A stretch of DNA of 64,000 nucleotides from Deltaproteobacteria bacterium GWC2_55_46 (lineage in GTDB: Bacteria > Desulfobacterota > GWC2-55-46): NCBI GenBank assembly GCA_001595385.3, contig LVEI03000001.1, positions 2,137,501-2,201,500 of the forward strand, given 5' to 3'. A model generated the notes under the pieces. That model worked only from the letters and a program-made list of their open reading frames with translations. It searched no databases and was not told the DNA's origin. Positions 32,486 to 46,353 of this stretch are shown here, piece by piece. The number at the start of each line of letters is the position of its first letter. Within the stretch, counting starts at the first letter, position 1. A program made the translations under genes and the position numbers.

Positions 32486-33505
32486 CTAACATATCCTCGG
32501 CAACTGCTCCCCTGAGAGCATGTCGAGTATCCGCCTGTTTCCGATCGAGGTCTCAAGGAGCACCTTGCCCCTGGGCCCCTCCTCGACGGCCCCGATGATG
32601 GCCGCGTCCTTGCCAAGCGGGTGGGAACGCATCGCCGCAAGCACCTTTAGGGCAGAATCGCCTGAGGTCACGGCCACGAGCTTGCCTTCGTTGGCGAGAT
32701 AGAGCGGGTCGAAGCCCAGTATCTCGCACGCGCCCTTTACCGCCTCTTTAACCGGTATATCTTCTTCCCTTATCGCTATGGCAGAGCCTGCTGAAGCCGC
32801 GAACTCATTGAGCACCGTTGCGAGCCCGCCCCTTGTCGGGTCCCTCATCGCCTTTATGCCGGAAGGGACAGCGGCGAGCATGGCCCTTGTAAGGGTGTGG
32901 AGCGCGGCGCAGTCGCTTTCAACAGGCGATTCCATCTGAATGCCTTCTCTGTGGGTAAGGATCGCTATGCCGTGGTCGCCCATCGTCCCTGAGACGATTA
33001 CAGCGTCACCGGGGCGTATGTTGGCTGGCGTAAGCGTTTCCGTGCCGTTCAGTACGCCGATCCCGGCGGTATTTATGAAGAGCTTGTCTCCCTTGCCGCG
33101 TTCGACCACCTTCGTATCCCCGGTCACTATCTTGACCCCTGCCGCCTCAGCTGTTTTTGCCATGGAATGGACGACCCTTTCAAGTTCGTCCATCCCAAGC
33201 CCTTCTTCTATTATGAACGAGGCGCTCAGGTATACGGGCTCGGCCCCGCCTACCGCGAGGTCGTTTATCGTCCCGCATACAGAGAGCTTGCCGATATCCC
33301 CGCCAGGGAAGAAGATGGGCTTTACCACGTAAGAGTCTGTCGTGAAGGCGAGCCTGTCCGCTGGAAGAGTGAATACGGCCTGGTCGTTGAGCGGGGCGAG
33401 GAACTCGTTCGAGAAGGCCTTCGCGAAGACTTCCTCTACGAGCCTCCTTGAGTAGCTCCCGCCGCTTCCGTGCGCAAGCAGTATGATCTTGTCTTTTCTT
33501 GTCAT
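32486..33505 (-). CDS. hypE: Hydrogenase maturation protein HypE
   Basis: Dehydrates the S-carboxamide on its C-terminal Cys to a thiocyanate, the cyanide donor for the Ni-Fe active site; the carbamoyl group comes from HypF. 339 residues from Met 33505. Purine/AIR-synthase-like fold with LLAHGSGGSYSRRLVEE, FTTDSYVV, GTINDLAVGGA, DPTRGGLATVLNE and the invariant C-terminal PRIC ending in Cys. The ATG overlaps the hypD stop (ATGA) and has AAGGTGGC upstream. Last gene of the maturation operon. Confidence 0.96.
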   Translation of the reverse strand: MTRKDKIILLAHGSGGSYSRRLVEEVFAKAFSNEFLAPLNDQAVFTLPADRLAFTTDSYVVKPIFFPGGDIGKLSVCGTINDLAVGGAEPVYLSASFIIEEGLGMDELERVVHSMAKTAEAAGVKIVTGDTKVVERGKGDKLFINTAGIGVLNGTETLTPANIRPGDAVIVSGTMGDHGIAILTHREGIQMESPVESDCAALHTLTRAMLAAVPSGIKAMRDPTRGGLATVLNEFAASAGSAIAIREEDIPVKEAVKGACEILGFDPLYLANEGKLVAVTSGDSALKVLAAMRSHPLGKDAAIIGAVEEGPRGKVLLETSIGNRRILDMLSGEQLPRIC

Positions 33506-34593
33506 GCCACCTTCCTGTACTTGAAGAACGCCGCGCAGGTGCCCTCTGAAGAGACCATGCACGGGCCTATGGGGAACTCAGGCGTGCAGGCCCTGGCAAA
33601 GAGCGGGCACTTATCCGGCGTCATCAGTCCCTTGAGCACCGAGCCGCACATGCAGCCCTTTGGTTCCTCGTCCTTGCCGCGCGGTATTGAGAACTTCCTT
33701 TCGGCGTCAAACTCAGAGAAACCATCCTTTATCCTGAGGCCGCTTCCCGGTATGTTGCCTATCCCTCTCCAGAGGCTGTCGCCAGGCTCGAATACGCTAT
33801 CCATTATCTCCTGCGCTTTTTTGTTGCCATCCCAGGTGACGACCCTGTCGTACTCTATCTCGATGGCCTGCCTTCCCTCTTCGAGCTGTCTTACGAGCAT
33901 GTATATGCCCATGAGCGCGTCTATAGGCTCGAAACCCGCCACCACGCACGGAGAGCCGTACTCGCTTGCAAGGAAGCCGTATGAGCTGGCGCCTATGATG
34001 GCCGTGACGTGGCCCGGGCAGATGAAGCCGTCTATCTCTATCTCGCCGCTGTCCATCAACGCCTTCATCGCCGGGGGCGTAAGCTTATGGAGAGAGAGGA
34101 CCGAGAGGTTTTTTATCCCCTCTTCTTTCGCGGCGAGTATCGTCGCCGCTACCGTCGGCACGGTCGTCTCGAAGCCCACGGCGAAGAGCACCACCTCGCG
34201 CTCTCTATTGGACCTGGCGATATCTATCGCCCCAAGCGGCGAATAGACGACCCTTATGTCGCTCCCGCGGGCCTTCTCTTCCTGCAGGGAAGATGCTGAG
34301 CCGGGGACCTTCATCATGTCCCCGAATGTCGCTATGATGGCGTCTTTCCGGGACCTGCTGAACTCGATTACGCGGTTCACGTCGGCGGCTGATGTAACGC
34401 AGACCGGGCAGCCGGGCCCCGATATGAGCTTGATGTTTTTCGGCAGGGCGTCCCTTATGCCGTATTTGGATATGGAATGGGTGTGCGTGCCGCAGATCTC
34501 CATTATGCTTACGTCTTTGCGCGAGATCTCGCGTATCTTCGTGATGAGCCCCTGCGCCTCATCCCTTTTCCTGAACTCGTCTATGTACTTCAT
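33502..34593 (-). CDS. hypD: Hydrogenase maturation protein HypD
   Basis: Iron-sulphur protein on which, with HypC, the Fe(CN)2CO unit is assembled. 363 residues. Conserved motifs MEICGTHTHSI, SGPGCPVCVT, AVGFETTVPT, GFICPGHVTAIIG and the cluster Cys near the C-terminus (CPLFARACTPEFPIGPC). It overlaps hypC upstream and hypE downstream by four bases each (ATGA), so the three are translationally coupled. Confidence 0.96.
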   Translation of the reverse strand: MKYIDEFRKRDEAQGLITKIREISRKDVSIMEICGTHTHSISKYGIRDALPKNIKLISGPGCPVCVTSAADVNRVIEFSRSRKDAIIATFGDMMKVPGSASSLQEEKARGSDIRVVYSPLGAIDIARSNREREVVLFAVGFETTVPTVAATILAAKEEGIKNLSVLSLHKLTPPAMKALMDSGEIEIDGFICPGHVTAIIGASSYGFLASEYGSPCVVAGFEPIDALMGIYMLVRQLEEGRQAIEIEYDRVVTWDGNKKAQEIMDSVFEPGDSLWRGIGNIPGSGLRIKDGFSEFDAERKFSIPRGKDEEPKGCMCGSVLKGLMTPDKCPLFARACTPEFPIGPCMVSSEGTCAAFFKYRKVA

Positions 34594-34805
34594 AGCCCCG
34601 CTATCCCCCTTATGAGGCGGAGAGTTTCTTCCGCCTTCTCCTCATCTACCTTCTCGATGGCGAAGCCCGCGTGGATTATGACGTACTCTCCGGCCCTGAC
34701 ATCCTTCATCAGCCTGACGTTAGCCTCTTTTCTTGTGCCGGCAACATCGACCATGGCCACGTCGCCTTTTACCTCGATTATCTTACCTGGAATGCCAAGA
34801 CACAT
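34590..34805 (-). CDS. hypC: Hydrogenase maturation chaperone HypC
   Basis: Small chaperone of 71 residues that carries the iron-diatomic ligand complex to the large-subunit precursor. It starts MCLGIPGKIIEV with the essential Cys2, followed by a small barrel (MVDVAGTRKEANVRLM) and the C-terminal helix VDEEKAEETLRLIRGI. The stop overlaps the hypD start. It lies five bases behind hypF. Confidence 0.95.
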   Translation of the reverse strand: MCLGIPGKIIEVKGDVAMVDVAGTRKEANVRLMKDVRAGEYVIIHAGFAIEKVDEEKAEETLRLIRGIAGL

Positions 34806-34810
34806 TTTTA

Positions 34811-37123
34811 TTACCTTCCTTTTACGTTCTCCCAGGCGACAACCGCCTGGCCGAGGGAGATGCCCCCGTCGTTCGCAGGGACCCTCTCCTGCGCATATAC
34901 AGTAAACCCTTTCCCGGCAAGCCCCTCGGCGATGATAGTTGAAAGGAGCCTGTTCTGGAATACGCCTCCGCTTAAGACCGCTGTATTGATGCCGGTCTCA
35001 ACGCGCAAGGCCTCGCAAGCCTTTACGGACAGATCCGCGATCGTAGAATGGAACCTGCCGGAGATAATCGATCCTGGCATGCCGTTGTTTACGTCCTCGG
35101 CCATGGCCATGATGATCGGAGCGGTCTCTATCCGCATGGGGGCGCTGCCGGCAAACTCGAAAGGATAGGGGCTTGATCCATCTCCGCCTATATCCGCGAT
35201 CGCTTCGAGCTCAATGGCGGCTTCTGCCTCAAAGGTTATCTCATCCCGTATACAAGCGATAGACGAAGCCGCGTCAAAGAGCCTGCCCATGCTCGATGTG
35301 AAGGGCGAGTTGACCCCCTTATGGACCATCGACGCGACAAGCTCTGCCCTGGGGCCTATCCTTTCCGCGAAGCCACGGAGCGCCTCCCATCCGCATGACC
35401 CGCCGTAAGAATCAACAAGATACGAGATGGCCATCCGCCACGGCTCTTTTACGGCCGTATCCCCTCCGGGGAGCCGGACGTACTTGAGGTGCGCGGCCCT
35501 CCTGAACTCGCGCCTTGAGGCTATGAGGAACTCTCCGCCCCAGATCCTGCCGTCCGTGCCGAGGCCAGTGCCGTCAAAGGAGAGACCGATGACCTCGCTG
35601 GAAAGACCGTGCTCGGCCATCGCGCTGGCGATGTGGGCGTGGTGGTGCTGTACGGGTATTATCCTTTCAGCCGGGATCTTTTTCTCCTTCGCGTACTCAA
35701 GGGCGAACCTGGTGCTGAGATAATCCGGATGGAGGTCGTGCGCGACGACCGTTGGCTCGGCCCTGAAGGTGTTCTTGAGGTTTCTGAGCGTTTCCTGATA
35801 GAACTCAAGGGCCTGGAAGTTCTCAAGGTCGCCGATGTGCTGGCTCAAGATCGCGTTCCTGCCCCTGGTCAGGCAGAACGTGTTCTTAAGGAGCGCGCCG
35901 GCGGCGAAGACATCTTCCATCTCAGCGCCAAGGTCGATTGCGTCAGGGGCGTAGCCGCGCGCCCTTCGGAGTACCTTCTTTTTGCCGGAATCGATCCTCG
36001 CGATAGAGTCGTCGACCCTCATGTATATATCCCTGTCGTGGAAGAGGAAGTGGTCAGCGATCCCGGAAAGCCTCTTTAAGGCCTCATCGTTCGATACGAC
36101 TATAGGCTCTTCCGCGAGGTTGCCGCTTGTCATGACGAGCGCCTTGAAAGAAGCCCCGGCGAAGAGAAGGTAATGGAGCGGGGTGTACGGGAGCATCACG
36201 CCGAGGCGGTTGTTCCCGGGCGCTACCGCCTCATCGAGGATGGACGGCGTTTTCTTCCTCAAAAGGACGATAGGCCTTCTCCTGTCAGTGAGCGCGTCTT
36301 CCTCTTTATCGTCAAGCTCGCAGAACTCTCTTATTGAGGCGACATCCGTGGCCATAAGGGCGAAGGGCTTGTTCGAGCCGCGCCTTTCATTCTTAAGTGA
36401 TCTGCGCTTCCTGTCCCTGAGCTTTCTTACCGCATCGTGGTTTTGAGCGTCGCAGGCGAGGTGAAATCCCCCAAGCCCCTTTATCGCGAGTATCTTGCCT
36501 TCTTTAAGGAGCCTCTGTGCCTCGACTATAGCCTCGAAGTCCTTTCCCGTATCAGCGTCGTGGAGCCAGGCCCTGGGGCCGCAAGCTGGACAGGCGTTTG
36601 GCTGGGCATGGAACCTCCTGTCAGCCGGGTCATGGTATTCGCCCTCGCATTCCGGGCACATCCCGAAGGGCGCCATGGTGGTCTTGGGCCTGTCGTAAGG
36701 TATGTCGAGTATGATCGAGTACCTCGGCCCGCAGTTGGTGCAGTTGATGAAAGGATAGTGAAAACGCCTGTCAGACGGGTCGAGCAACTCACGGAGGCAG
36801 TCGTGGCATATAGCCACGTCAGGGGATACGAGGACGAACTTCCCGTCAACGGGCCTGCTCTCGCGTATGGTGAAGGAGCTGTAGCCGCCGCTCTGCTCGA
36901 CCTGCTCTACTGTGATGGCCTCTATCCTCGAAAGCGGCGGCGGAGAAGCCCTCAGCTCGTCTATGAAAGAATCGACAGAGTCGCCCTGGACCTCTATTAC
37001 GACCCCTTCTGAATCGTTCAGGCAGTAGCCGGTGAGGTTATGCCTCGCCGCGAGGTTGTAGACATAGGGGCGAAATCCCACTCCCTGCACTATGCCCGAT
37101 ATATGTATCCTTGCGCTATCCAT
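34811..37123 (-). CDS. hypF: Carbamoyltransferase HypF
   Basis: Uses carbamoyl phosphate and ATP to make the carbamoyl group for the cyanide ligands and transfers it to HypE. About 770 residues. Acylphosphatase-like domain (IHISGIVQGVGFRPYVY), two zinc-finger pairs (CHDCLREL ... CTNCGPRYS; CPECEGEY ... CPACGPRAW), a YrdC/Sua5-like domain and a Kae1-like domain with IPVQHHHAHIASAMAEHG. Start Met 37123 is used because the acylphosphatase domain begins just after it and GGAAGC lies upstream; it overlaps the hypB end by eight bases. Confidence 0.95.
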   Translation of the reverse strand: MDSARIHISGIVQGVGFRPYVYNLAARHNLTGYCLNDSEGVVIEVQGDSVDSFIDELRASPPPLSRIEAITVEQVEQSGGYSSFTIRESRPVDGKFVLVSPDVAICHDCLRELLDPSDRRFHYPFINCTNCGPRYSIILDIPYDRPKTTMAPFGMCPECEGEYHDPADRRFHAQPNACPACGPRAWLHDADTGKDFEAIVEAQRLLKEGKILAIKGLGGFHLACDAQNHDAVRKLRDRKRRSLKNERRGSNKPFALMATDVASIREFCELDDKEEDALTDRRRPIVLLRKKTPSILDEAVAPGNNRLGVMLPYTPLHYLLFAGASFKALVMTSGNLAEEPIVVSNDEALKRLSGIADHFLFHDRDIYMRVDDSIARIDSGKKKVLRRARGYAPDAIDLGAEMEDVFAAGALLKNTFCLTRGRNAILSQHIGDLENFQALEFYQETLRNLKNTFRAEPTVVAHDLHPDYLSTRFALEYAKEKKIPAERIIPVQHHHAHIASAMAEHGLSSEVIGLSFDGTGLGTDGRIWGGEFLIASRREFRRAAHLKYVRLPGGDTAVKEPWRMAISYLVDSYGGSCGWEALRGFAERIGPRAELVASMVHKGVNSPFTSSMGRLFDAASSIACIRDEITFEAEAAIELEAIADIGGDGSSPYPFEFAGSAPMRIETAPIIMAMAEDVNNGMPGSIISGRFHSTIADLSVKACEALRVETGINTAVLSGGVFQNRLLSTIIAEGLAGKGFTVYAQERVPANDGGISLGQAVVAWENVKGR

Positions 37124-37787
37124 CTTGCTTCCCGTTTTCCCTGACAAGCCCGGCAAGGTATCCGGCCCATGCGCTCACCCCGGCGCCGGTCCTGCACGAG
37201 GTCTCGAATATCTTTAGATACGGGTTGACCTTTAACGCGTTCTCCCGTGCCCTGTCGATATCGAAGTCTGTATGGGGGGCGAGGTCTGTCTTGTTTATTA
37301 TGAGGGCCTCGGATGCGCTGAAGATGGCAGGGTATTTAAGGGGCTTGTCATCCCCTTCCGTGGTCGACATGACCGTGACCATCATATCCTCGCCCAGGTC
37401 GTACTCCGCAGGGCAGACCATGTTGCCGACGTTCTCTATTACAAGGAGGTCTATTGGACGCTCGAAGACCCACGGCAGGGCGTGGCTTATCTGGTGGGCG
37501 TCGAGGTGGCAGGCCCTGCCGGTGGTTATCTGCAAGGCGGGGATCCCGTGCCGCTCTATCCTCCTGGAATCGAAGTCCCCTTCGAGGTCGCCTTCGACTA
37601 CCGCGAACCTTACGCCAAGCGATCCAAGCTCAGCGGCCATCCGCTCGATAAGAGAGGTCTTGCCGGCGCCCGGCGCGCTTACGATATTTATCGTGTAGAT
37701 ATTATTCCGAGCGAGCGCCTTTCTGTTCTCTGCCGCTATCTCGTCGTTCTTCGCGAGTATCTTTTCTTCTATGAGTATCTCGTGCAT
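37116..37787 (-). CDS. hypB: Hydrogenase nickel incorporation GTPase HypB
   Basis: GTPase that drives nickel insertion into the hydrogenase large subunit with HypA. 223 residues. P-loop SAPGAGKTSLIERM, metal-binding GRACHLDAHQISHALP, switch VIENVGNMVCPAEYDLGED and NKTDLAPH. The N-terminus has neither the CxxCGC motif nor a His-rich nickel-storage stretch found in some homologues, so it is the short form. It is directly adjacent to the hypA stop and overlaps hypF. Confidence 0.95.
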   Translation of the reverse strand: MHEILIEEKILAKNDEIAAENRKALARNNIYTINIVSAPGAGKTSLIERMAAELGSLGVRFAVVEGDLEGDFDSRRIERHGIPALQITTGRACHLDAHQISHALPWVFERPIDLLVIENVGNMVCPAEYDLGEDMMVTVMSTTEGDDKPLKYPAIFSASEALIINKTDLAPHTDFDIDRARENALKVNPYLKIFETSCRTGAGVSAWAGYLAGLVRENGKQDG

Positions 37788-38129
37788 CTAAGCGCCTTCC
37801 ATCGATATTATGTCAAGCTCTGTCCCGCCGACCCTGTCAATGGACGTACTGCCGCACCCGGGGCAGGTGTTATCGAACGAGGTTATCCTGAACCTGGAGG
37901 CGCACCCGCGGCAGAGGCCTGTAAGAGGCACCTCCTCTATTTCAAGCGCCGCGCCTTCAAACGGGGTTCCCTTTATAGAGATCTCGAAGCAGAACCTCAA
38001 TGCCTCAGGCTCCACGGCCGTGAGCTCTCCTATCCTCAGGCGCACCTTGTAAAGGCGCGCGAGGGCGGCCCTGTCCATCTCTCGCTTTACCGCCTCGAGG
38101 ACGCTCTTTGTTATTGACATCTCGTGCAT
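37788..38129 (-). CDS. hypA: Nickel metallochaperone HypA
   Basis: 113 residues. It begins MHEMSITKSVLEAV with the nickel-binding Met-His, and has the structural zinc ribbon CRGCASRFRI and CPGCGSTSID. It works with HypB in nickel delivery. It is immediately adjacent to hypB and two bases behind the protease gene. Confidence 0.95.
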   Translation of the reverse strand: MHEMSITKSVLEAVKREMDRAALARLYKVRLRIGELTAVEPEALRFCFEISIKGTPFEGAALEIEEVPLTGLCRGCASRFRITSFDNTCPGCGSTSIDRVGGTELDIISMEGA

Positions 38130-38131
38130 GG

Positions 38132-38632
38132 TTATTCCCTGGCCGATACCTTGAACCCGCTGGTCTCCAGCTCTTTTCTTATGGCCTCTGCCACAAGCGG
38201 CAGGGCTTTTTTTATTACAGGGGTAAGCTCAAGGCCCGCAGAGATATCCTTCGGGATGACCCCGATTATTACAAGTTCAGGGCTCAAGCCCTGGAACCTG
38301 GCTATCTCTATCAGGTCTCTTAGGCCGATCTGGTGGGCGGTAGAGGATTTGAGGGAGGGCCACTTCCGGACCTCTTCCCATGGTATGCGGAAGAGCTTTC
38401 CAGGCTCTCCATTTGCTGCGACCGCGTCAACGATGATGAGATGAGAAAAGTCCTTTATATACGAGAGGAGCCCCAGCCCGGAGGTGCCGCCGTCAAGGCA
38501 TGTCACTTCCTTGCCGAAGCTGTATCGCTCAGCAAAGTACTCTATCGCCCTTACCCCGAGCCCCTCGTCCTTGAGGAGCACATTACCGATCCCGAGCACG
38601 AGGGCCTTCTTCCGCTTCCGCTTTGCCATCAT
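38132..38632 (-). CDS. Ni-Fe hydrogenase maturation endopeptidase (HyaD/HupD family)
   Basis: Cleaves the C-terminal peptide of the hydrogenase large subunit after nickel insertion. About 166 residues; LVLGIGNVLLKDEGLGVRAI carries the nickel-sensing Glu, SHLIIVDAVAANG the Asp, and SSTAHQIGLRDLIEIA the His. The start is one of two adjacent ATG codons (38632/38629) behind a Lys/Arg-rich beginning. It leads the maturation operon. No hydrogenase structural gene lies beside it; the upstream neighbours are on the other strand. Confidence 0.9.
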   Translation of the reverse strand: MMAKRKRKKALVLGIGNVLLKDEGLGVRAIEYFAERYSFGKEVTCLDGGTSGLGLLSYIKDFSHLIIVDAVAANGEPGKLFRIPWEEVRKWPSLKSSTAHQIGLRDLIEIARFQGLSPELVIIGVIPKDISAGLELTPVIKKALPLVAEAIRKELETSGFKVSARE

Positions 38633-38757
38633 CAACAAGGGGTATGAGGCCGTATGATTATTATAATTTATTTTAACAGAAAAAGGCTTTCAATCCAAAC
38701 AATAAAGTCTTGTAAATACAAGGAATTGAGGATTATAATAGCCCTGCCCCGCGCCTC

Positions 38758-39033: not shown

Positions 39034-40809
39034 ATGGCCTATTCAAGGAGATCGCTGATAAAGCTCCTATCCCCCTGCCTTACGCTCATCGCGTTGGTCC
39101 TTGTCGCGTACTCGATCGTAAACTTCCAGTCCTATTTTTCCTGGGGCCCGGAGTCCATATCCGGCGCGCCTGTCCTGGGGCAGGGCGACTACCCGTTGGT
39201 CTCCCACGTGAACGGCAGGCTCGCCGTGTGGATGGCCGCGCAGATGCACCTGTGGTTCGCGGCCTTTGTGCTGGCCGTGCCGATATTCGTCCTCATGCTC
39301 GAGGTCATAGGCGTTGTCAAGAAAGAGAAGAGATACGACCGTGTGGCCTATGAGTTCCTGAGGGTCAGCATCACCGCCTTCTCACTTACGGCGATAACAG
39401 GCGGTCTCCTCTTGCTTACGCTCCTCGTATTCTACCCGGACCTCATGAAGTACCTGTTGTCGATATTCGGCCCGACGACGCTCCTGTACGCGCTCTTCTT
39501 TTTCTTCGAGTCCGCGTCCCTCTATACATATTACTACGGCTGGAAGCGTATGAGCGAAGGCTGGCTCAAGTGGGCGCACATCGGGGTAGGGCTCGCGCTC
39601 AACTCCGCCGGGACAGCCCTCATGTTCGTAGCCAACGCCTGGGTGACCTTCATGATGACGCCGGATGGGGTCGATGCGGCAGGCGTGTTCAGAGGGGACC
39701 TCTGGGCGGCGGTAACGAACCACCTGTGGAGCCCTATGAACCTCCACAGGTTCATAGCCAATATCGCCTACGGCGGGTCGATAGTAGGCGCGTACGCCGC
39801 CTACAGGTTCCTCGGCGCCGCCACAGATGATGAGAAGGCGCACTATGACTGGATGGGCTACACCGCGAGCCTCATAGCCATAGGCGCTCTCCTGCCTCTG
39901 CCTTTCGCTGGCTATTGGCTAACCGCCGAAATATACGCCTTCAGCCAGCAGATGGGCATCACCCTCATGGGAGGTGTATTCGCATGGCTTTTCATCGTAC
40001 AGGCGGTCTTGATAGGCGCGCTCTTCCTCGCCGCCAATTATTATCTCTGGTGCGGCTTCGGCAGGAGCCCTGCTGGCGAAAGATACCTGCGGTACGTTAA
40101 GTACATAGCCTTCGTGATAGCCGCCTCTTTCCTTGTATGGTTCACACCGCATACCCTGATACTTACCCCTCAAGAGGCGAGGGCCCTTGGCACTCAGTAC
40201 CATCCATACCTTGGCCCCCTCGGGCTCATGCCGGCCAAGAACACGGCCGTAAACATCATGCTCCTTTTTACATTCCTGTCCTTCATCCTCTACAGGAGGG
40301 CGCAGAGGACCCCGACGGTGGCGTGGGCCGGGTACGGGAAAGCGCTCCAGGCAGGGCTTTTCACCGCGGCTATCGTCAATATCGTCTTCCTCGGGGTCTA
40401 TTACGGCTACTTCACCAACAGCCTCTACAAGGTGGCTTCATCGGTCCCGCAGGTAGCCACTACCATATTCGTCATCATAGCCTGCCTCGTGATAGAAGGG
40501 CTCATGCACAGGGGCGCTACAAAACATGATTTCACCTGGGGGCGCATGCCCGGGAGGAGCCAGTACGCGCTCATCCTCATAGCCGTCTCCTTCACATGGC
40601 TTATGGGGCTCATGGGTTTTGTCCGCTCGGCCATCAGGCAGCAGTGGCATGTCTACTCTGTCATGAAGGACGCCTCACCCGACGCCTTTACGCCTTCCAT
40701 CGCCTACGCCGCAAAGGTGGTATCAGTCGGGACTATCATATTCCTCTCCATAGTCGTCTTTATCTTCTGGCTCGGCGGCCTCGGGGCGAAAGCGGAGGCC
40801 GATGAATAA
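39034..40809 (+). CDS. CydA-like membrane protein (cytochrome bd oxidase subunit I homologue)
   Basis: 591 residues with about 13-14 transmembrane helices. HVNGRLAVWMAAQMHLWFAA matches the helix that holds the haem b595 ligand (His72). FFFFESASLYTYYYGW matches the E. coli region around Glu107 (here Glu159), but the second haem d-site Glu eight residues earlier is Leu151. At the place of the haem b558 His (KFVHT in E. coli) it reads HRFIANI, with Ala242. The C-terminal VRSAIRQQWHVYS resembles GRQPW. So the family is clear but key haem/quinol features seem changed. No cydB follows; three c-type cytochrome genes do. It overlaps the next gene by eight bases. It may take electrons from cytochrome c. 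Confidence 0.8.
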   Translation: MAYSRRSLIKLLSPCLTLIALVLVAYSIVNFQSYFSWGPESISGAPVLGQGDYPLVSHVNGRLAVWMAAQMHLWFAAFVLAVPIFVLMLEVIGVVKKEKRYDRVAYEFLRVSITAFSLTAITGGLLLLTLLVFYPDLMKYLLSIFGPTTLLYALFFFFESASLYTYYYGWKRMSEGWLKWAHIGVGLALNSAGTALMFVANAWVTFMMTPDGVDAAGVFRGDLWAAVTNHLWSPMNLHRFIANIAYGGSIVGAYAAYRFLGAATDDEKAHYDWMGYTASLIAIGALLPLPFAGYWLTAEIYAFSQQMGITLMGGVFAWLFIVQAVLIGALFLAANYYLWCGFGRSPAGERYLRYVKYIAFVIAASFLVWFTPHTLILTPQEARALGTQYHPYLGPLGLMPAKNTAVNIMLLFTFLSFILYRRAQRTPTVAWAGYGKALQAGLFTAAIVNIVFLGVYYGYFTNSLYKVASSVPQVATTIFVIIACLVIEGLMHRGATKHDFTWGRMPGRSQYALILIAVSFTWLMGLMGFVRSAIRQQWHVYSVMKDASPDAFTPSIAYAAKVVSVGTIIFLSIVVFIFWLGGLGAKAEADE

Positions 40810-41317
40810 CCTCATCAAGGCCGCCCTCTTTAGCCTTCTCATAATCGGCCTCTATACATTCTATTCGGCTGTCGTCATCCCGCCGATCGCGACGGAGGAG
40901 CAACCGTTGGAGGGGCTGGCTGGCGAAAGCATCAAGACCGTCGACGACCTCGTAGCCCTCGGCGAGGCCGTTTATAACGGCAAGGGGGCGTGCGCCCTCT
41001 GCCACAACCCGCAGGGAGGCAGGGCCCCAATGCTTGAGAACTCAGCCCATTTGGCCGGTGAGAGGATAAAGGCCCCTGGGTACAGAGGCAAGGCGACGGA
41101 TGCCGAGGGCTATCTCTACGAATCTCTCGTTGAGCCCTCTGCCTATGTCGTGCCAGGCTTCGGGACGAGCGGAAGCGGGGACATGGCAAGCCCGATGCCG
41201 GACGTAAGGAGCAGGTCAATCGGACTCGACGAGACCGAGATAAAGGCGGTCATCGCCTATCTGCAGAGCGTTTCAGGCGTTGATATAACCGTCAAGGTAG
41301 AGGGGGCGGGGGAATGA
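40802..41317 (+). CDS. Membrane-anchored monohaem cytochrome c
   Basis: 171 residues. One N-terminal helix (AALFSLLIIGLYTFYSAVVI) acts as signal anchor, then a periplasmic class I-like cytochrome domain with haem site Cys64-Cys67-His68 (GACALCHNPQGG) and a candidate distal Met in DMASPMPDVRS. It ends with LDETEIKAVIAYLQSV, the usual C-terminal helix. Overlaps the CydA-like gene (8 bases) and the next gene (4 bases, ATGA), so it belongs to the same complex or electron path. Confidence 0.88.
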   Translation: MNNLIKAALFSLLIIGLYTFYSAVVIPPIATEEQPLEGLAGESIKTVDDLVALGEAVYNGKGACALCHNPQGGRAPMLENSAHLAGERIKAPGYRGKATDAEGYLYESLVEPSAYVVPGFGTSGSGDMASPMPDVRSRSIGLDETEIKAVIAYLQSVSGVDITVKVEGAGE

Positions 41318-42060
41318 AGCTACTTAACTACATCCTCATAAACCTCTGCTTCTACGCCATCCTCAAGGCGCCTGGGCTTCTCATGGGCAAGCCCATACCT
41401 GGAAGCGTCATCTCGATGTACATGTTCTTTATCGTCATCACCGTCCTCCTTGTGATGACGGTAACCGACAGGGGCGTTGAGGCGCTTTTCGCGCCATTGA
41501 GGGCGCTTGTAGAAGACCCGTCAAAGGCGATCTTAAGGAATATCGTTTTCATAATACTCCCTGTCGCAGCCGGCTACATCGCTTATACCCAGTCCGGCAA
41601 GGCCTCTGTGCCGCCTGTAGAGCTGAGGAGCGCGCACCCGGCCCCTCCTGCCGTCTTCAAGGCCTATGGCAAGGAGTTCGACCTCTCCACGCTTGAGAAC
41701 CCATACAGGAAGATGGAGAAGGCGGACCCTGCGGCCTTCAAGGACCTCATAGAAGACGGCGGTGAGGTCTATTTCAAGAACTGCGTTTTCTGCCACGGCG
41801 CGAAGCTCGACGGCAGGGGCCATTACGCCCACGCGCTCGACCCGCTGCCCATGCCGTTCACAGGCGGCGACACGATAGCGCAGCTCCAGGAATCGTACGT
41901 CTTCTGGAGGGTGGTGAAGGGCGGCCCCGGGCTCCCGAGGGAAGGCGGCCCGTCAATATCGTCCATGCCGTCATGGGAGGGCTCTCTTTCGGAAGATGAG
42001 GTCTGGAAGGTGATACTCTTCCTTTACGACTATACCGGGAACAGGCCGAGGATCTGGTGA
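41314..42060 (+). CDS. Three-span membrane protein with C-terminal cytochrome c domain
   Basis: 248 residues. Three hydrophobic helices in the first 92 residues (ILINLCFYAILKAPGLL, SVISMYMFFIVITVLLVMTV, IVFIILPVAAGYIAYT), then a periplasmic cytochrome c domain with Cys157-Cys160-His161 (NCVFCHGAKLDGRGHY) and SSMPSWEGSLSEDEVWKVIL as the Met-containing C-terminal part. It is tightly coupled with its neighbours: ATGA overlap upstream and one-base gap downstream. Probably an electron-transfer subunit feeding the CydA-like protein. Confidence 0.87.
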   Translation: MKLLNYILINLCFYAILKAPGLLMGKPIPGSVISMYMFFIVITVLLVMTVTDRGVEALFAPLRALVEDPSKAILRNIVFIILPVAAGYIAYTQSGKASVPPVELRSAHPAPPAVFKAYGKEFDLSTLENPYRKMEKADPAAFKDLIEDGGEVYFKNCVFCHGAKLDGRGHYAHALDPLPMPFTGGDTIAQLQESYVFWRVVKGGPGLPREGGPSISSMPSWEGSLSEDEVWKVILFLYDYTGNRPRIW

Positions 42061-42061
42061 T

Positions 42062-43573
42062 ATGCTCTTAAGGCCGTTTATAGCGCTTTTGATGCTTGCC
42101 GCCTTTACAGGCCAGTCCTCCTTCGCGGCGGAAGGGCTTGAGAACGGGAAGGCTATCTATGAGAAGAGGTGCTGGTGGTGCCACGGCAAGGAAGGCGCCG
42201 GTGACGGCCCTGCCTCACAACACTTAAACCCGCCGCCCAGGGACTTGACCCTCGGCCTCTATAAATGGAAGTCCACTCCTTTCGATGAGCTTTCGCCTTC
42301 TGATGATGACTTTTATAATATGATAGCCGGTGGCCCTGACAGGGGTATACATGGCTGGACAGGCCTTGGCGACACCTCGATGCCAGGCTGGGCCGACCTG
42401 CTGAGCCGGCAGGATATCAAAGACGTTGCCGCCTATATAAAGACCTTCGCGGGGCTTGAAAAGGCTCTGAAGCCCCCGGTAAGCCTCTCAGGCAAGATAT
42501 CTCCTGACAAGGATGGACTTCTAAGCGGCAGGAAGCTTTTCAAGGATAACTGCTCTGAATGCCACGGAGAAGCCGGCAGGGGGGATGGCACAAAAAAGCT
42601 CAAGGACGACTGGGGAGCGAGGACCTGGCCGAGGGACCTTACCAAGGGCTGGACCTTCAGGATGGGGAATAGACCCGAGGATATATACACACGGGTAACA
42701 GTCGGTATCCCCGGCACCCAGATGCCGAGCTTCGCTGACCCGGCCTCCAGGAAGGTCATGACAGAGGCCGAGCGGTGGGAGGTGGCCAATTACGCAGCCT
42801 CGCTTGACGAGCCGGAAAGAAGACCTGTTACCGGGGTGCTTAAGGCCGTGAAAACAGATGGCAGCGCGCCAACTCAAGCGAGCGACAGGATATGGGACAG
42901 GGCAGGGTACGCGACCTACCACCTCTTCCCGCAGATAATCGCCGGAGAACGGGCATATACGCCTTCGTTAAACTCGGTTTCAATAAAGGCGGTCTATGAT
43001 CAATCGGATATCGCGTTCCTGATCGAGTGGGACGACCCTACAAACTCGATGCCCTGGGATGAGAAGGCTCAGCGGATAGCGGATGGCGTGCCCTTCCCGG
43101 ACGGCTTTGCGATACAGTTTCCGGCAGAGATAAAGGGGGCCGAAAGACCTTACTTCGGGATGGGCGGCCCCAAGCCGGTAGCCATCTGGTCGTGGCAAAG
43201 CCCCGGGTCAGAGGATTCCGGGCAGACCGTCAAGTCAATAGAGGCAAGAGGGGCCGGCAGGCTCTCGCAGATCGACGATCACGGGGTTTCAGCTACAGGA
43301 GCGTATGAGAACGGCAGGTGGCGCGTGGTGGTGAAAGGGCCGTTACGGCCCGGCAAGGGACCTGTTCTCGAAGAGGGAAGGTTCATCCCCGTCGCCTTCG
43401 CGGCATGGGACGGGTCTAACGGGGATAACGCCGGGAAGCATGTGATGACAGGCTGGGAGTGGGCGGTCCTTGAAAAAGAAGCTCCCCGGTCCTTCAATAT
43501 ATGGCCCTTCGCGATAGGCGCCCTCGTCTTCGCAGCCGAGATGTTCTGGCTATTTAGCGCCCGGAGAAGGTAG
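42062..43573 (+). CDS. Dihaem cytochrome c fused to an ethylbenzene-dehydrogenase-type haem b domain
   Basis: 503 residues. Signal peptide (about 1-23), cytochrome c domain 1 with Cys37-Cys40-His41 (CWWCHGKEG), domain 2 with Cys164-Cys167-His168 (CSECHGEAG), each with a Met-containing helix (SMPGWADLLS; TQMPSFADP), then about 200 residues beginning VSIKAVYDQSDIAFLIEWDD of the type found in gamma subunits of ethylbenzene dehydrogenase and related enzymes, and a C-terminal helix (FAIGALVFAAEMFWLF) anchoring it to the membrane. It closes the CydA-like operon and probably receives electrons from a periplasmic partner. The bidirectional hairpin at 43590 follows. Confidence 0.87.
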   Translation: MLLRPFIALLMLAAFTGQSSFAAEGLENGKAIYEKRCWWCHGKEGAGDGPASQHLNPPPRDLTLGLYKWKSTPFDELSPSDDDFYNMIAGGPDRGIHGWTGLGDTSMPGWADLLSRQDIKDVAAYIKTFAGLEKALKPPVSLSGKISPDKDGLLSGRKLFKDNCSECHGEAGRGDGTKKLKDDWGARTWPRDLTKGWTFRMGNRPEDIYTRVTVGIPGTQMPSFADPASRKVMTEAERWEVANYAASLDEPERRPVTGVLKAVKTDGSAPTQASDRIWDRAGYATYHLFPQIIAGERAYTPSLNSVSIKAVYDQSDIAFLIEWDDPTNSMPWDEKAQRIADGVPFPDGFAIQFPAEIKGAERPYFGMGGPKPVAIWSWQSPGSEDSGQTVKSIEARGAGRLSQIDDHGVSATGAYENGRWRVVVKGPLRPGKGPVLEEGRFIPVAFAAWDGSNGDNAGKHVMTGWEWAVLEKEAPRSFNIWPFAIGALVFAAEMFWLFSARRR

Positions 43574-43639: not shown

Positions 43640-43843
43640 CTATCCTTTTCTCGATCGCCAGCTGCCTGCGGCTATGAAGACGGCTCCGATAGAGGCCATT
43701 ATGAAGTAGAAGGGGTCCGGGGCTGAGTTGGATTTTGTGTTGAGGAGTATGTTTATGAGGGCGAGGGAGACGAGGACAGCGCCGATGACACGGCTTCCAG
43801 CGCCTTTTTTGAGTGTTTTTTCTTCCTGGCCTTTGTCCATCAC
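43640..43843 (-). CDS. Small two-span membrane protein
   Basis: 67 residues: a charged N-terminus (DKGQEEKTLKKGAGS), helix VIGAVLVSLALINILL, a short loop and helix FYFIMASIGAVFIAAGS, ending WRSRKG. The start overlaps the radical SAM stop (ATGA), so it is the last gene of that operon. Family not recognised. Confidence 0.65.
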   Translation of the reverse strand: MMDKGQEEKTLKKGAGSRVIGAVLVSLALINILLNTKSNSAPDPFYFIMASIGAVFIAAGSWRSRKG

Positions 43844-45054
43844 CTGCCTGTCTTCTCCCTGAGTTCGGCCATCAGTTCAGGCGTGATGACCCTTATCCCT
43901 TTTGCGGCGGCATAGCGCTCAAGCCCTTTCTTTATCATCGGGCGTATGAACGCCGGAGCTTTTTTAAGCCTCTCTTCGGCCTCAACGCTCCATGCCGGGG
44001 CAGAGGACTTTTCCTTTATGATATTGCCAACAGGCTCGTGCGCGCACCATGGGTCTTCGTTCATGAGGTCGCCTGTGGTGGCCAGCGCCCTGGCCCTGCA
44101 GCCGCCGCAGCCTTGAGCGTACTCGCACTCGCCACATCTGCCCTTGTGTCTTGGGGCCCGAAGCGAGACAAAGTCGCGGTCTTCGTCCCAGATGCCCTTA
44201 AGGGAGCTGCTTTTGAGGTTGGGAGAGTCAGCCCTTGCGGGTATGTAAGGGCAGGGCGTTACAAAGCCCTCTGGCGAGATCCTGAGATAACCGTCCCCTG
44301 CTATGCAGCCGCTTGTGCCGCCCTTTATTAGAGAGCTACTGTTGTTCACCGAACCTGCTATCCTCACGATGTGCGGGGCGCACCGCGCCCTTACCATTAT
44401 CCTCCCTTTATATTCCTCTTCCTTTTGGACGATAAGGCGGAGTACGGATTCGTACTCGACGGGTGAAAGGTCGGTCGATCGCTGCCCACGGCCGGTGCAG
44501 ACGAGGAAGAAGAAGTTTACGGCCTTTGCCCCGTGTGAATAAGCGAAGTCGATGAAAGAGGCGACCTCTTCCTTGTTCTCTTTCATGACCGTGAACTGCA
44601 GTTGAAAGGGGATGGGAGAGGCTGAGAGCGCCTCTATGCCGCCGCACGCCTTTGTCCACGCGCCCTCCATCCCCCTTACGCGGTCATGGAGGGCGGGGGA
44701 GAGCGAATCTACGCTTACGCCAGCGCCCTGGATACCGGCTTCAGTAAGTCTTTTGACTATTTCATCCGTAAGGAGGGTCCCGTTGGTGCCGAGTACCGGG
44801 GAAAGGCCAAGGGAGGCGGCCCGCGATGAGATATCGAATATGTCGTGCCTTAAAAGCGGCTCTCCGCCCGTCAATACGAGCATGCAGCCGGGGGCGAGTT
44901 CCGCTATCTCATCGAGAAATGAGTTGGCCTCAACCGTAGAGACGGCGTCGGCCCCGGTAAGCTCACTCGAGTCGAGGTAGCAGTGGCCGCAGGCGAGGTT
45001 GCACCGTTTTGTGGTGTTCCAGGAGACGATGAATGGCCGGGAGGCGTCCGTCAT
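43840..45054 (-). CDS. Radical SAM/SPASM protein with PCP_red-like C-terminal domain (AhbD/NirJ-like)
   Basis: 404 residues. Radical SAM cluster Cys18-x3-Cys22-x2-Cys25 (CNLACGHCYL), GGEPLLR, and a SPASM-type C-terminal Cys array (GGTSGCIAGDGYLRISPEG ... CGECEYAQGCGGCRARA). This is the layout of AhbC/AhbD/NirJ enzymes of alternative haem or haem d1 synthesis. After it come about 55 residues, ERLKKAPAFIRPMIKKGLER ... ITPELMAELREK, that look like the PCP_red domain named from protochlorophyllide reductase. The upstream Usp gene ends in the same domain. It overlaps both neighbours by four bases. The substrate is not certain. Confidence 0.85.
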   Translation of the reverse strand: MTDASRPFIVSWNTTKRCNLACGHCYLDSSELTGADAVSTVEANSFLDEIAELAPGCMLVLTGGEPLLRHDIFDISSRAASLGLSPVLGTNGTLLTDEIVKRLTEAGIQGAGVSVDSLSPALHDRVRGMEGAWTKACGGIEALSASPIPFQLQFTVMKENKEEVASFIDFAYSHGAKAVNFFFLVCTGRGQRSTDLSPVEYESVLRLIVQKEEEYKGRIMVRARCAPHIVRIAGSVNNSSSLIKGGTSGCIAGDGYLRISPEGFVTPCPYIPARADSPNLKSSSLKGIWDEDRDFVSLRAPRHKGRCGECEYAQGCGGCRARALATTGDLMNEDPWCAHEPVGNIIKEKSSAPAWSVEAEERLKKAPAFIRPMIKKGLERYAAAKGIRVITPELMAELREKTGR

Positions 45055-46220
45055 CCTTCGAGTTTCTTCCTTACCCTGCGCATGAGGTCAGGGGTTACTT
45101 CAAGGAGTCCTTCTTTTTTCGCGGTATCTTCTATTACGCGCTTTACAACACCCCTCGCGAACTTCGGTATGCGCGACAGAAGCGCCTTCGCCTCTTCAGT
45201 CCAGGCAAGGGAGCCGTCCTTGTGGCCTATCTCCGGGGTGAACTCCGTTGACGAGACGAGCACGTGGCAGCGGACGTTCCGTAAGCAGTTCTCTATATTG
45301 GAGCCTATGTCGAGGCCGGCTACCGCGTGCGCGCCGGTCCTCCCTGCTGCGAGCATGAACGGAGCGGTCTTCCTGGCGTGGCGTATGACCTCTTCAGAGG
45401 CCTTGCCGGCAAGAAGGGTCGTCTTTATCCTCTTCCCACGGGACGCGGCCACCTTCTCAGCCGTCTCAAGGTGCCCCATGTAGAGCTTCGCGAGCCCCTT
45501 GTCTATTATCTCGTCATGGAGCTTCTCCTGCTCCTTGAACCTGAAGAGCTTGCCGGCCTCCTCTGTGAGGACCCCCGCTATGGAACGGAAAGCCGACTGG
45601 TGGAAGACCGGGTCAAAGGCGCTTACGGCCTCTATGTCGCAATCGAATATCCCGGAGAGCTCGATGGCCCTCAAGAGGGCGCCGAAGGAGGCGGGACTGC
45701 CGTCTATGGCGACCATGATGCCCTTGCCTGTGTCCGCGCCTTCCTGTGTAAGGAGGACGTCGGTGCGGACCCGCCGCACCACCCTTTCGGCTACGCTCCC
45801 GATGCTGCTCGTACCGGTCCTGCCGAGTCCGAGGAGCCCCATGGCAACGAGGTCATACGGGCACTCGGAGACCTCTTTTACTATCTCCTCGAAGTTTTTC
45901 CCTTCCCTGTCTACGCCCTTGACCTCCAGCCCCGCGGCCATAGCCTGGAATACAGACATGTAGGAGTCGGAGATAATCTTGAGGCCCTTTGTTATGAGCG
46001 TGTCATGGACCTCTCGGGTGTTCCTGAGTATCTCTTCCTGCCTGTATTCTTGAGGCAGGCCGTCCTCCATCTCGATGAACCGCGTGTTGTGGAGCTTTGC
46101 CGCGTACACATGGCAGCCGGTGAGTAATGCTCCGCGCGCGCGCGCTATCTCGATTGCGAGGGCGGAGGCGGCGTTGGAATGGTTTGAGTTGTCCAGGCAG
46201 ACGAGGATATTTTTGTACAT
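45051..46220 (-). CDS. Tandem universal stress protein with PCP_red-like C-terminal domain
   Basis: About 389 residues. Two Usp domains: the first begins MYKNILVCLDNSNHSNAASA and ends with GLGRTGTSSIGSVAERVVRR (ATP-binding glycine motif); the second begins KGIMVAIDGSPASFGALLRA and ends with GRTGAHAVAGLDIGSNIENC. The tail, EEAKALLSRIPKFARGVVKR ... LEVTPDLMRRVRKK, has the PCP_red pattern (P-x-F-x-R-x-x-x-(K/R) ... ITP-x-(L/M)). A GTG at 46244 would add eight residues; the Met at 46220 is where Usp domains normally start. It is first in an operon with the radical SAM gene (ATGA overlap). Confidence 0.87.
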   Translation of the reverse strand: MYKNILVCLDNSNHSNAASALAIEIARARGALLTGCHVYAAKLHNTRFIEMEDGLPQEYRQEEILRNTREVHDTLITKGLKIISDSYMSVFQAMAAGLEVKGVDREGKNFEEIVKEVSECPYDLVAMGLLGLGRTGTSSIGSVAERVVRRVRTDVLLTQEGADTGKGIMVAIDGSPASFGALLRAIELSGIFDCDIEAVSAFDPVFHQSAFRSIAGVLTEEAGKLFRFKEQEKLHDEIIDKGLAKLYMGHLETAEKVAASRGKRIKTTLLAGKASEEVIRHARKTAPFMLAAGRTGAHAVAGLDIGSNIENCLRNVRCHVLVSSTEFTPEIGHKDGSLAWTEEAKALLSRIPKFARGVVKRVIEDTAKKEGLLEVTPDLMRRVRKKLEG

Positions 46221-46353
46221 ACGGAGTATTTTATCCCAATTCACGGCCGTAGAAAAGGTTTTTGAAGGCAGAATGCCCTGGTGGCCCCGGGGTTATGAAT
46301 GCCTGGGGGATGATGACTACGGGTGGAAGGGTTACTTATGGTATGTATCTTTA

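Follow-up and report, generated by a model that had tools for sequence, protein, structure and literature searches.

The element considered here is a pair of overlapping genes in the window, a 64,000-nucleotide stretch of the Deltaproteobacteria bacterium GWC2_55_46 genome (contig LVEI03000001.1, positions 2,137,501 to 2,201,500), whose own numbering is used below. Both genes lie on the reverse strand, beside a cluster for a cytochrome bd-like (bd-like) complex. The first in reading direction (45051-46220) encodes a tandem universal stress protein (Usp), here called Usp-PCP, of 389 amino acids when counted from its ATG start, an alternative GTG start at 46244 being likewise open. The second (43840-45054) encodes a radical SAM/SPASM enzyme of 404 amino acids (Pfam Radical_SAM 70.5 bits, SPASM 27.7 bits), here called rSAM-PCP, and the two are coupled: the stop codon of the first and the start codon of the second overlap by 4 bp, ATGA (45051-45054, reverse strand). 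Behind them, on the same strand, follows a small hydrophobic open reading frame of 66 amino acids (43640-43840) whose ATG overlaps the rSAM-PCP stop; it has a counterpart behind the enzyme in five of the seven relatives inspected (L058, L059, L060, L062 and L067; none in L070 and L076) and is a possible membrane anchor.

Both proteins end in a PCP_red domain (PF08369, curated Pfam cut-off 32.5 bits), which scores 52.3 bits in rSAM-PCP (residues 355-399, E 5.9e-14) and 44.9 bits in Usp-PCP (residues 340-383, E 1.2e-11). The tails lie on the reverse strand at 43858-43992 and 45069-45203, respectively, converted from the six-frame matches G000:C1:2181358-2181492 and G000:C1:2182569-2182703. Aligned with each other, they share 18 of 48 positions and reach a score of 95, where 2000 shuffles gave at most 55, and are thus homologous, whereas the remainders of the two proteins score 38, at chance level (shuffled mean 35, maximum 57, n=300). 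The first-pass annotation had described translationally coupled genes with similar, PCP_red-like ends, and all of this holds, coordinates included; the third coupled frame, of 66 amino acids, went unmentioned there. A six-frame search of the host genome found no third PCP_red above 32.5 bits, only three weak matches of 12-15 bits, and on this ground the idea that the pair is a remnant of chlorophyll synthesis was rejected. The rest of Usp-PCP belongs to the Usp family (PF00582, 130.2 bits in two domains, cut-off 24), and its predicted model consists of two halves of alternating helix and strand followed by three tail helices (mean predicted local distance difference test score, pLDDT, 84.8). 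Its glycines 128, 131, 133 and 141 are invariant among 15 aligned rows and fit the ATP motif of Usp proteins; the protein is a putative ATP binder.

rSAM-PCP belongs to a distinct enzyme clade on the AhbD/NirJ2 side of the haem-related radical SAM enzymes, and the clade is marked by the PCP_red tail. By profile it comes nearest to NirJ2 among NCBIfam families (TIGR04055, 310.2 bits); it scores 291.2 bits to the heme b synthase AhbD (TIGR04545), and neither score reaches the cut-off of 500. Relatives were collected by a scan of genome_contigs with one genome per species (84,980 species); among the best 80 of 573, the alignment of 53 extends at least as far as query residue 391, i.e. into the tail, and their titles include Nitrospira, Nitrospina, Brocadia, Chromatiales, Alphaproteobacteria, Gemmatimonadota, Bacteroidota, Vicinamibacteraceae, Chloroflexi and others. 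A tree was computed from 117 cores with the tails removed, by a quick method with Shimodaira-Hasegawa-like approximate likelihood ratio (SH-aLRT) support and no bootstrap; it has one long end branch (L221). In it, the tailed enzymes form a single clade of 72 rows (SH-aLRT 99) within the AhbD/NirJ2 side (SH-aLRT 100), away from NirJ, NirJ1 and AhbC. When the 117 full rows were scanned, the tail was found in 68 of the 72, the other four being two that stop at a contig end, one that hits N past the tail start and one with a frameshifted tail; it occurs in none of the 45 rows outside the clade, where the top score is 3.0 bits.

The radical SAM CX3CX2C cysteines (C18, C22 and C25) and the eight SPASM cysteines of AhbD (C225, C250, C268, C307, C310, C316, C319 and C337) are kept in 69-71 of 71 clade rows. 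Their spacing is near the full AhbD motif as given in the part of PMC10452713 available, one gap being 38 residues instead of 36-37. Two arginines found in all eight AhbD-type rows (positions 26 and 110 of the window's enzyme) are replaced in the tailed clade by tyrosine (71/71) and glycine (68/71), with the limit that these eight rows were named by tree position and that two of them, L210 and L212, were profile-tested above cut-off. Identity with NirJ was rejected, as C225, C250 and C268 are missing from the five NirJ-type rows, which fall in another clade. The predicted model of the enzyme (mean pLDDT 81.4) shows the tail as three helices.

A clue stronger than the tails, and absent from the first-pass annotation, is that the occurrence of the enzyme follows that of the CydA-like subunit of the bd-like complex next door (39034-40809, forward strand; 591 amino acids), which matches Pfam Cyt_bd_oxida_I (PF01654) over residues 62-294 with 74.9 bits, the cut-off being 26.2. 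Both proteins were sought across the window's phylum, in 297 genomes at least 85% complete, with thresholds of at least 545 bits for the CydA-like subunit and at least 455 bits, with a match reaching the tail, for rSAM-PCP. Strong CydA-like matches occur in 16 of the 297 genomes and rSAM-PCP in 15, all of them among those 16, so that the subunit is present in 15/15 genomes with the enzyme and in 1/282 without it (Fisher p 2e-24, relatedness ignored); the next-best enzyme score was 354 bits, from a tail-less protein. The sole CydA-like genome without rSAM-PCP (G144) is 86% complete and holds a Usp-PCP gene on a 5.3-kb contig. Four further genomes of the phylum have weak CydA matches (75-107 bits), which were not counted. 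G250, in which the CydA-like gene adjoins rSAM-PCP, is the only member of its family (f17) among the 20 genomes with a CydA match. A second survey, of the genomes behind named loci (18 of 68 loci not included), found the CydA-like subunit in 36 of 39 genomes with rSAM-PCP (Fisher p 1e-8, again without regard to relatedness) and no strong match in 11 control genomes that hold AhbD or NirJ2 only, one of them scoring 46.7 bits. One genome was probably counted in both surveys, since G371 (locus L133) and G250 agree in contig number, coordinates and bits. In the genomes sampled, the co-occurrence of enzyme and subunit is near-perfect and the link between them strong. EB_dh, a haem-b-type domain of the same cluster, is found in 47 of the 297 genomes, including 14 of the 15 with rSAM-PCP, which makes it a less specific partner than the CydA-like subunit; it was therefore rejected as the determining partner of the enzyme.

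Gene order was compared in relatives. In these comparisons, genes were called by a simple longest-frame caller that misses some of them (in L103, L139 and L144 the query match runs into the tail and no enzyme is labelled, and the L066 enzyme is absent from its cluster), and profile labels rest on one representative of each gene cluster unless said otherwise. PCP_red matches are present in 48 of 59 relatives, 27 of which have two copies 1.0-1.7 kb apart on the same contig. Among 41 stretches, namely the window and L058-L097, the latter 40 picked for PCP_red, the Usp cluster and the radical SAM cluster each occur in 22, and 16 of the 22 radical SAM loci also have the CydA-like gene. The 4-bp overlap of the pair recurs in L058, L059, L060, L062, L063, L068 and L072; in L064, L067, L070 and L073 the genes overlap or stand apart by 1-4 bases, in L075 they are 315 bases apart, and the overlap of 154 in L065, L071 and L077 comes from the caller's choice of start. 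Among 51 named loci with a PCP_red protein, the radical SAM cluster is present in 51, the Usp cluster in 34 and the CydA-like gene in 11. A HemY-like gene occurs in 18/51, always directly next after the enzyme, and its identity was profile-tested in L137 (TIGR00562, 246 bits, cut-off 98). By the enzyme's place in the tree, the HemY-like neighbour and the co-occurring cytochrome, the surroundings are related to tetrapyrroles and cytochromes, in line with the target next door that the first-pass annotation had tentatively suggested.

The co-occurrence might also arise without any direct link, if one and the same life style, perhaps low-oxygen and chemolithotrophic, favours both rSAM-PCP and CydA-like complexes and if PCP_red is a helical domain for interactions of a general kind. 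The variety of proteins that carry PCP_red would fit such a reading, as would Fisher tests that take no account of relatedness and the separation of the genes in Nitrospira loci. However, adjacency is kept in loci that have otherwise lost their synteny, the pair and the CydA-like gene stand in order on one strand in L116, L133, L134, L145 and L157 (they are convergent in the window), and EB_dh, from the same cluster, is the less specific companion. A mere coincidence of life style is for these reasons considered very unlikely.

Several other genes recur in these neighbourhoods. A B12-binding radical SAM protein lies directly upstream of the pair in L099, L100, L104, L107-L110 and L113, and is nearest to the slr0320 kind (442 bits in L099, where it was tested, below the cut-off of 775). 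In L104:5764-7875 and L146:11337-13280, Usp-PCP has three PCP_red copies, with a rubredoxin-like CxxC pair between copies. An arsenite-oxidase-type molybdenum enzyme accompanies Usp, radical SAM and HemY genes in L120, L125 and L127 (tested in L120: 417 bits, cut-off 359), as do MauG-like di-haem proteins in L126, L127 and L147 (tested in L126: 206 bits, below cut-off); these two kinds of protein are possibly another client of the pair. Type II DMSO-reductase-like molybdenum enzymes lie nearby in L133, L137, L142 and L167, the two tested scoring 294 and 255 bits, below their cut-offs.

The position of the enzyme beside AhbD raises the question of whether it is simply a second coproheme decarboxylase which, together with HemY acting as coproporphyrinogen oxidase and with HemH, would make ordinary haem b at low oxygen for the adjoining cytochromes. 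Its side of the tree, the full AhbD cysteine set, the HemY-like neighbour and, in G351, an additional HemH some 2 kb away from the enzyme all agree with this, and AhbD is described as ending the coproporphyrin route in some organisms (PMC7242693, in the part available). In five genomes (G344, G345, G350, G351 and G352), the HemY adjoining the enzyme is the sole one above cut-off. Yet the host genome already has an AhbD above the cut-off (L212, 530 bits against 500), located apart from rSAM-PCP, and identity of rSAM-PCP with the host's own AhbD was rejected on this account. Neighbours of L212 are presumably HemB and HemD, as read from their sequences. The host also has HemH adjoining HemY, a NirJ/AhbC-like paralogue below its cut-offs (L223), a partial match to the ChdC family (58.6 bits) and no HemN above cut-off, the best reaching 121 of 325 bits. 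Elsewhere, HemN is above cut-off in six of 16 genomes with rSAM-PCP, and two genomes with the enzyme, G348 and G054, have neither HemH nor HemY above cut-off; AhbD passes in G348 (503 bits), and the AhbD-like paralogue of G054 was not profiled. Since the host combines AhbD, HemH and HemY, and G348 has AhbD but neither HemH nor HemY above cut-off, rSAM-PCP is an extra on either haem route. Together with the low AhbD score and the two lost arginines, these observations make an additional AhbD of this kind unlikely. In G002, a partial match to the chlorite-dismutase/ChdC family (L213:545-1429, 55 bits) directly adjoins an AhbD-type gene.

PCP_red also occurs on a variety of other proteins, and a survey of these carriers bears out in part the idea that the tail touches on tetrapyrroles. 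Several carriers belong to families that act on them, and others, such as CADD/haem-oxygenase-like and MFS proteins, have no known tetrapyrrole. Two ChuW/HutW-type haem radical SAM enzymes (L090:7364-8992, 489 bits, cut-off 400; L096:6737-7822, 375 bits, below it) have an N-terminal PCP_red, so that a tetrapyrrole enzyme unconnected with chlorophyll synthesis also bears the domain. At L085:7546-8334, where the type was profiled, and similarly in L086, L087 and L095, PCP_red stands at the N-terminus of small sulfite-reductase-like proteins that have Fer4 domains, and many single PCP_red frames of 260-350 amino acids may be of this kind. BchB/BchZ-like nitrogenase-like carriers score 172 and 149 bits to BchB, below cut-off. 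Haem-oxygenase-like/CADD proteins carry three copies at L078:6759-8312 and two at L080:3690-4775, the former (profiled) also with a rubrerythrin-type rubredoxin domain, and stand-alone copies were found as well, in addition to an MFS protein of the phylum whose PCP_red lies below cut-off (30.5 bits). The tails have no conserved Cys or His and do not look like haem ligands themselves; a metal or haem ligand role was rejected accordingly. PCP_red may instead be a small helical adaptor that places tetrapyrrole enzymes or their partners.

Taken together, the best explanation is that the pair forms a dedicated maturation module, modifying or fitting haem for the neighbouring bd-like, cytochrome-c-linked complex, a proposal to which we give about even weight for and against. 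Usp-PCP and rSAM-PCP would assemble via their tails, perhaps at the membrane through the 66-amino-acid protein, and the tails would hold both on the same tetrapyrrole-handling assembly. Within it, rSAM-PCP, as an AhbD-like paralogue with cysteines for two auxiliary Fe-S clusters, would most likely modify a side chain of haem or of a precursor, with a HemY-type protoporphyrinogen oxidase sharing the pathway in many genomes; Usp-PCP would be the nucleotide-binding partner, providing nucleotide-dependent control or handling, and the product would pass to the bd-like complex. A bolder version, in which a new modified haem made by rSAM-PCP, Usp-PCP and HemY resides in the bd-like complexes of nitrite oxidisers, anammox bacteria and numerous further lineages, is tentative and seems to us rather less probable than its opposite. 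If it were true, the clade would mark a new branch of haem biosynthesis for a whole class of respiratory complexes. A haem-family radical SAM enzyme that tracks bd-like complexes is a concrete lead on their haem content and gives the clade a likely role; for the PCP_red tail, it suggests what the domain may do apart from chlorophyll synthesis. Among the titles and abstract openings listed by literature searches, none links this clade or PCP_red to bd-like oxidases, and at that depth the novelty of the proposal is unproven.

A number of observations weigh against a haem-maturation module. Three genomes with rSAM-PCP (G367, G375 and G379) have no CydA-like match, and a fourth, G378, counted among the 36 of 39, has the subunit as fragments only; in the first two, molybdenum-enzyme genes lie near the pair (L125 and L142). 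The phylum searches scored at most four and at most six candidates per genome, and in G130, PCP_red sits in a 399-amino-acid frame with neither rSAM-PCP nor a CydA-like partner. In the Nitrospira loci examined, no gene up to 8 kb away from the pair is CydA-like, the Usp adjoining the enzyme in L133 has no PCP_red, and Usp-PCP is not found next to the enzyme in the six Nitrospinaceae and the three Planctomycetota loci. To these may be added the PCP_red carriers with no known tetrapyrrole, the literature, in which no biochemistry on the clade was found, and the exchange of both AhbD-type arginines, which makes coproheme itself doubtful as substrate. Lastly, among solved folds SuiB and PqqE come nearest, with SkfB and anSME also retrieved; the top 50 rows of the fold search contain general radical SAM enzymes only and no match for the tail. 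These folds, together with the frequent action of SPASM radical SAM enzymes on peptides and the linkage to one protein complex, would suit an enzyme that modifies a residue of the CydA-like or a cytochrome subunit, with Usp-PCP and the tails positioning the substrate. The tree, however, groups rSAM-PCP with tetrapyrrole enzymes, and the linkage to HemY better suits haem, so that a protein modifier is considered decidedly unlikely.

The bd-like complex itself can be compared with described systems. Its genes follow a region (32486-38638) that presumably encodes, to judge from the sequences, a maturation protease and the hydrogenase maturation proteins HypABDEF. After the CydA-like gene, the forward strand encodes a c-type cytochrome with one CXXCH (40802-41317; 171 amino acids, Pfam Cytochrom_C 29.4 bits), a c-type cytochrome with an N-terminal hydrophobic region (41314-42060; 248 amino acids, Cytochrome_CBB3 34 bits) and a protein with two cytochrome c domains, the EB_dh domain and a C-terminal hydrophobic segment (42062-43573; 503 amino acids, Cytochrom_C 75.3 bits, EB_dh 64.9 bits). 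The last resembles the alternative NxrC of nitrite oxidisers as portrayed in part of PMC6606698, a likeness of description and not of compared sequences. The same source, in the part available, reports from Nitrospira, Nitrospina and anammox bacteria a bd-like_3 cluster composed of a CydA-like protein, two c cytochromes and the alternative NxrC, leaving its role open. The window shares with it the CydA-like subunit, the two c cytochromes and an NxrC-type protein that bears two haem-binding motifs, and its four genes probably represent the same cluster, likened by description and not by sequence comparison; unlike the window, the bd-like_3 description contains neither 'radical SAM' nor 'universal stress' in the text available (PMC6606698). 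In nitrite-oxidising and related bacteria, bd-like complexes have been proposed to act as terminal oxidases or electron-transfer hubs; their composition or role is described as unsettled (available parts of PMC10839748, PMC12342949 and PMC6606698). The CydA-like subunit may be of the OR-N type, judging from the taxa and gene set in papers citing Murali et al. 2021 (PMC10839748 and PMC12342949, in part).

With regard to the enzyme, NirJ2 is the neighbouring clade and best profile match; rSAM-PCP differs in its sub-threshold score, in its PCP_red tail and in that no NirJ1-type neighbour is labelled in the tailed loci examined. With AhbD it shares the radical SAM domain, the eight-cysteine SPASM set and the side of the tree, and it departs from it in the tail, in scoring 291 of 500 bits, in the Tyr/Gly exchange and in the presence of a separate AhbD in the same genome; for AhbD, an assay that converts Fe-coproporphyrin to haem is described (PMC10452713, in the part available). 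Usp-PCP has its closest described likeness in a Methanomicrobiaceae Usp with a LI-POR_suB-like_C tail of the same kind, reported as an unusual automatic annotation in a text whose available part does not contain 'radical SAM' (PMC12159084). Finally, neither window protein has, by Pfam, the nitrogenase component 1 type domain of BchB/ChlB from dark-operative protochlorophyllide reductase, but both share its C-terminal PCP_red, and it is through this tail that rSAM-PCP as a query finds solved BchB chains (E 3e-4 to 5e-3), 3aek, 2kru and 8vqi among them (E 3e-4 to 1e-3).

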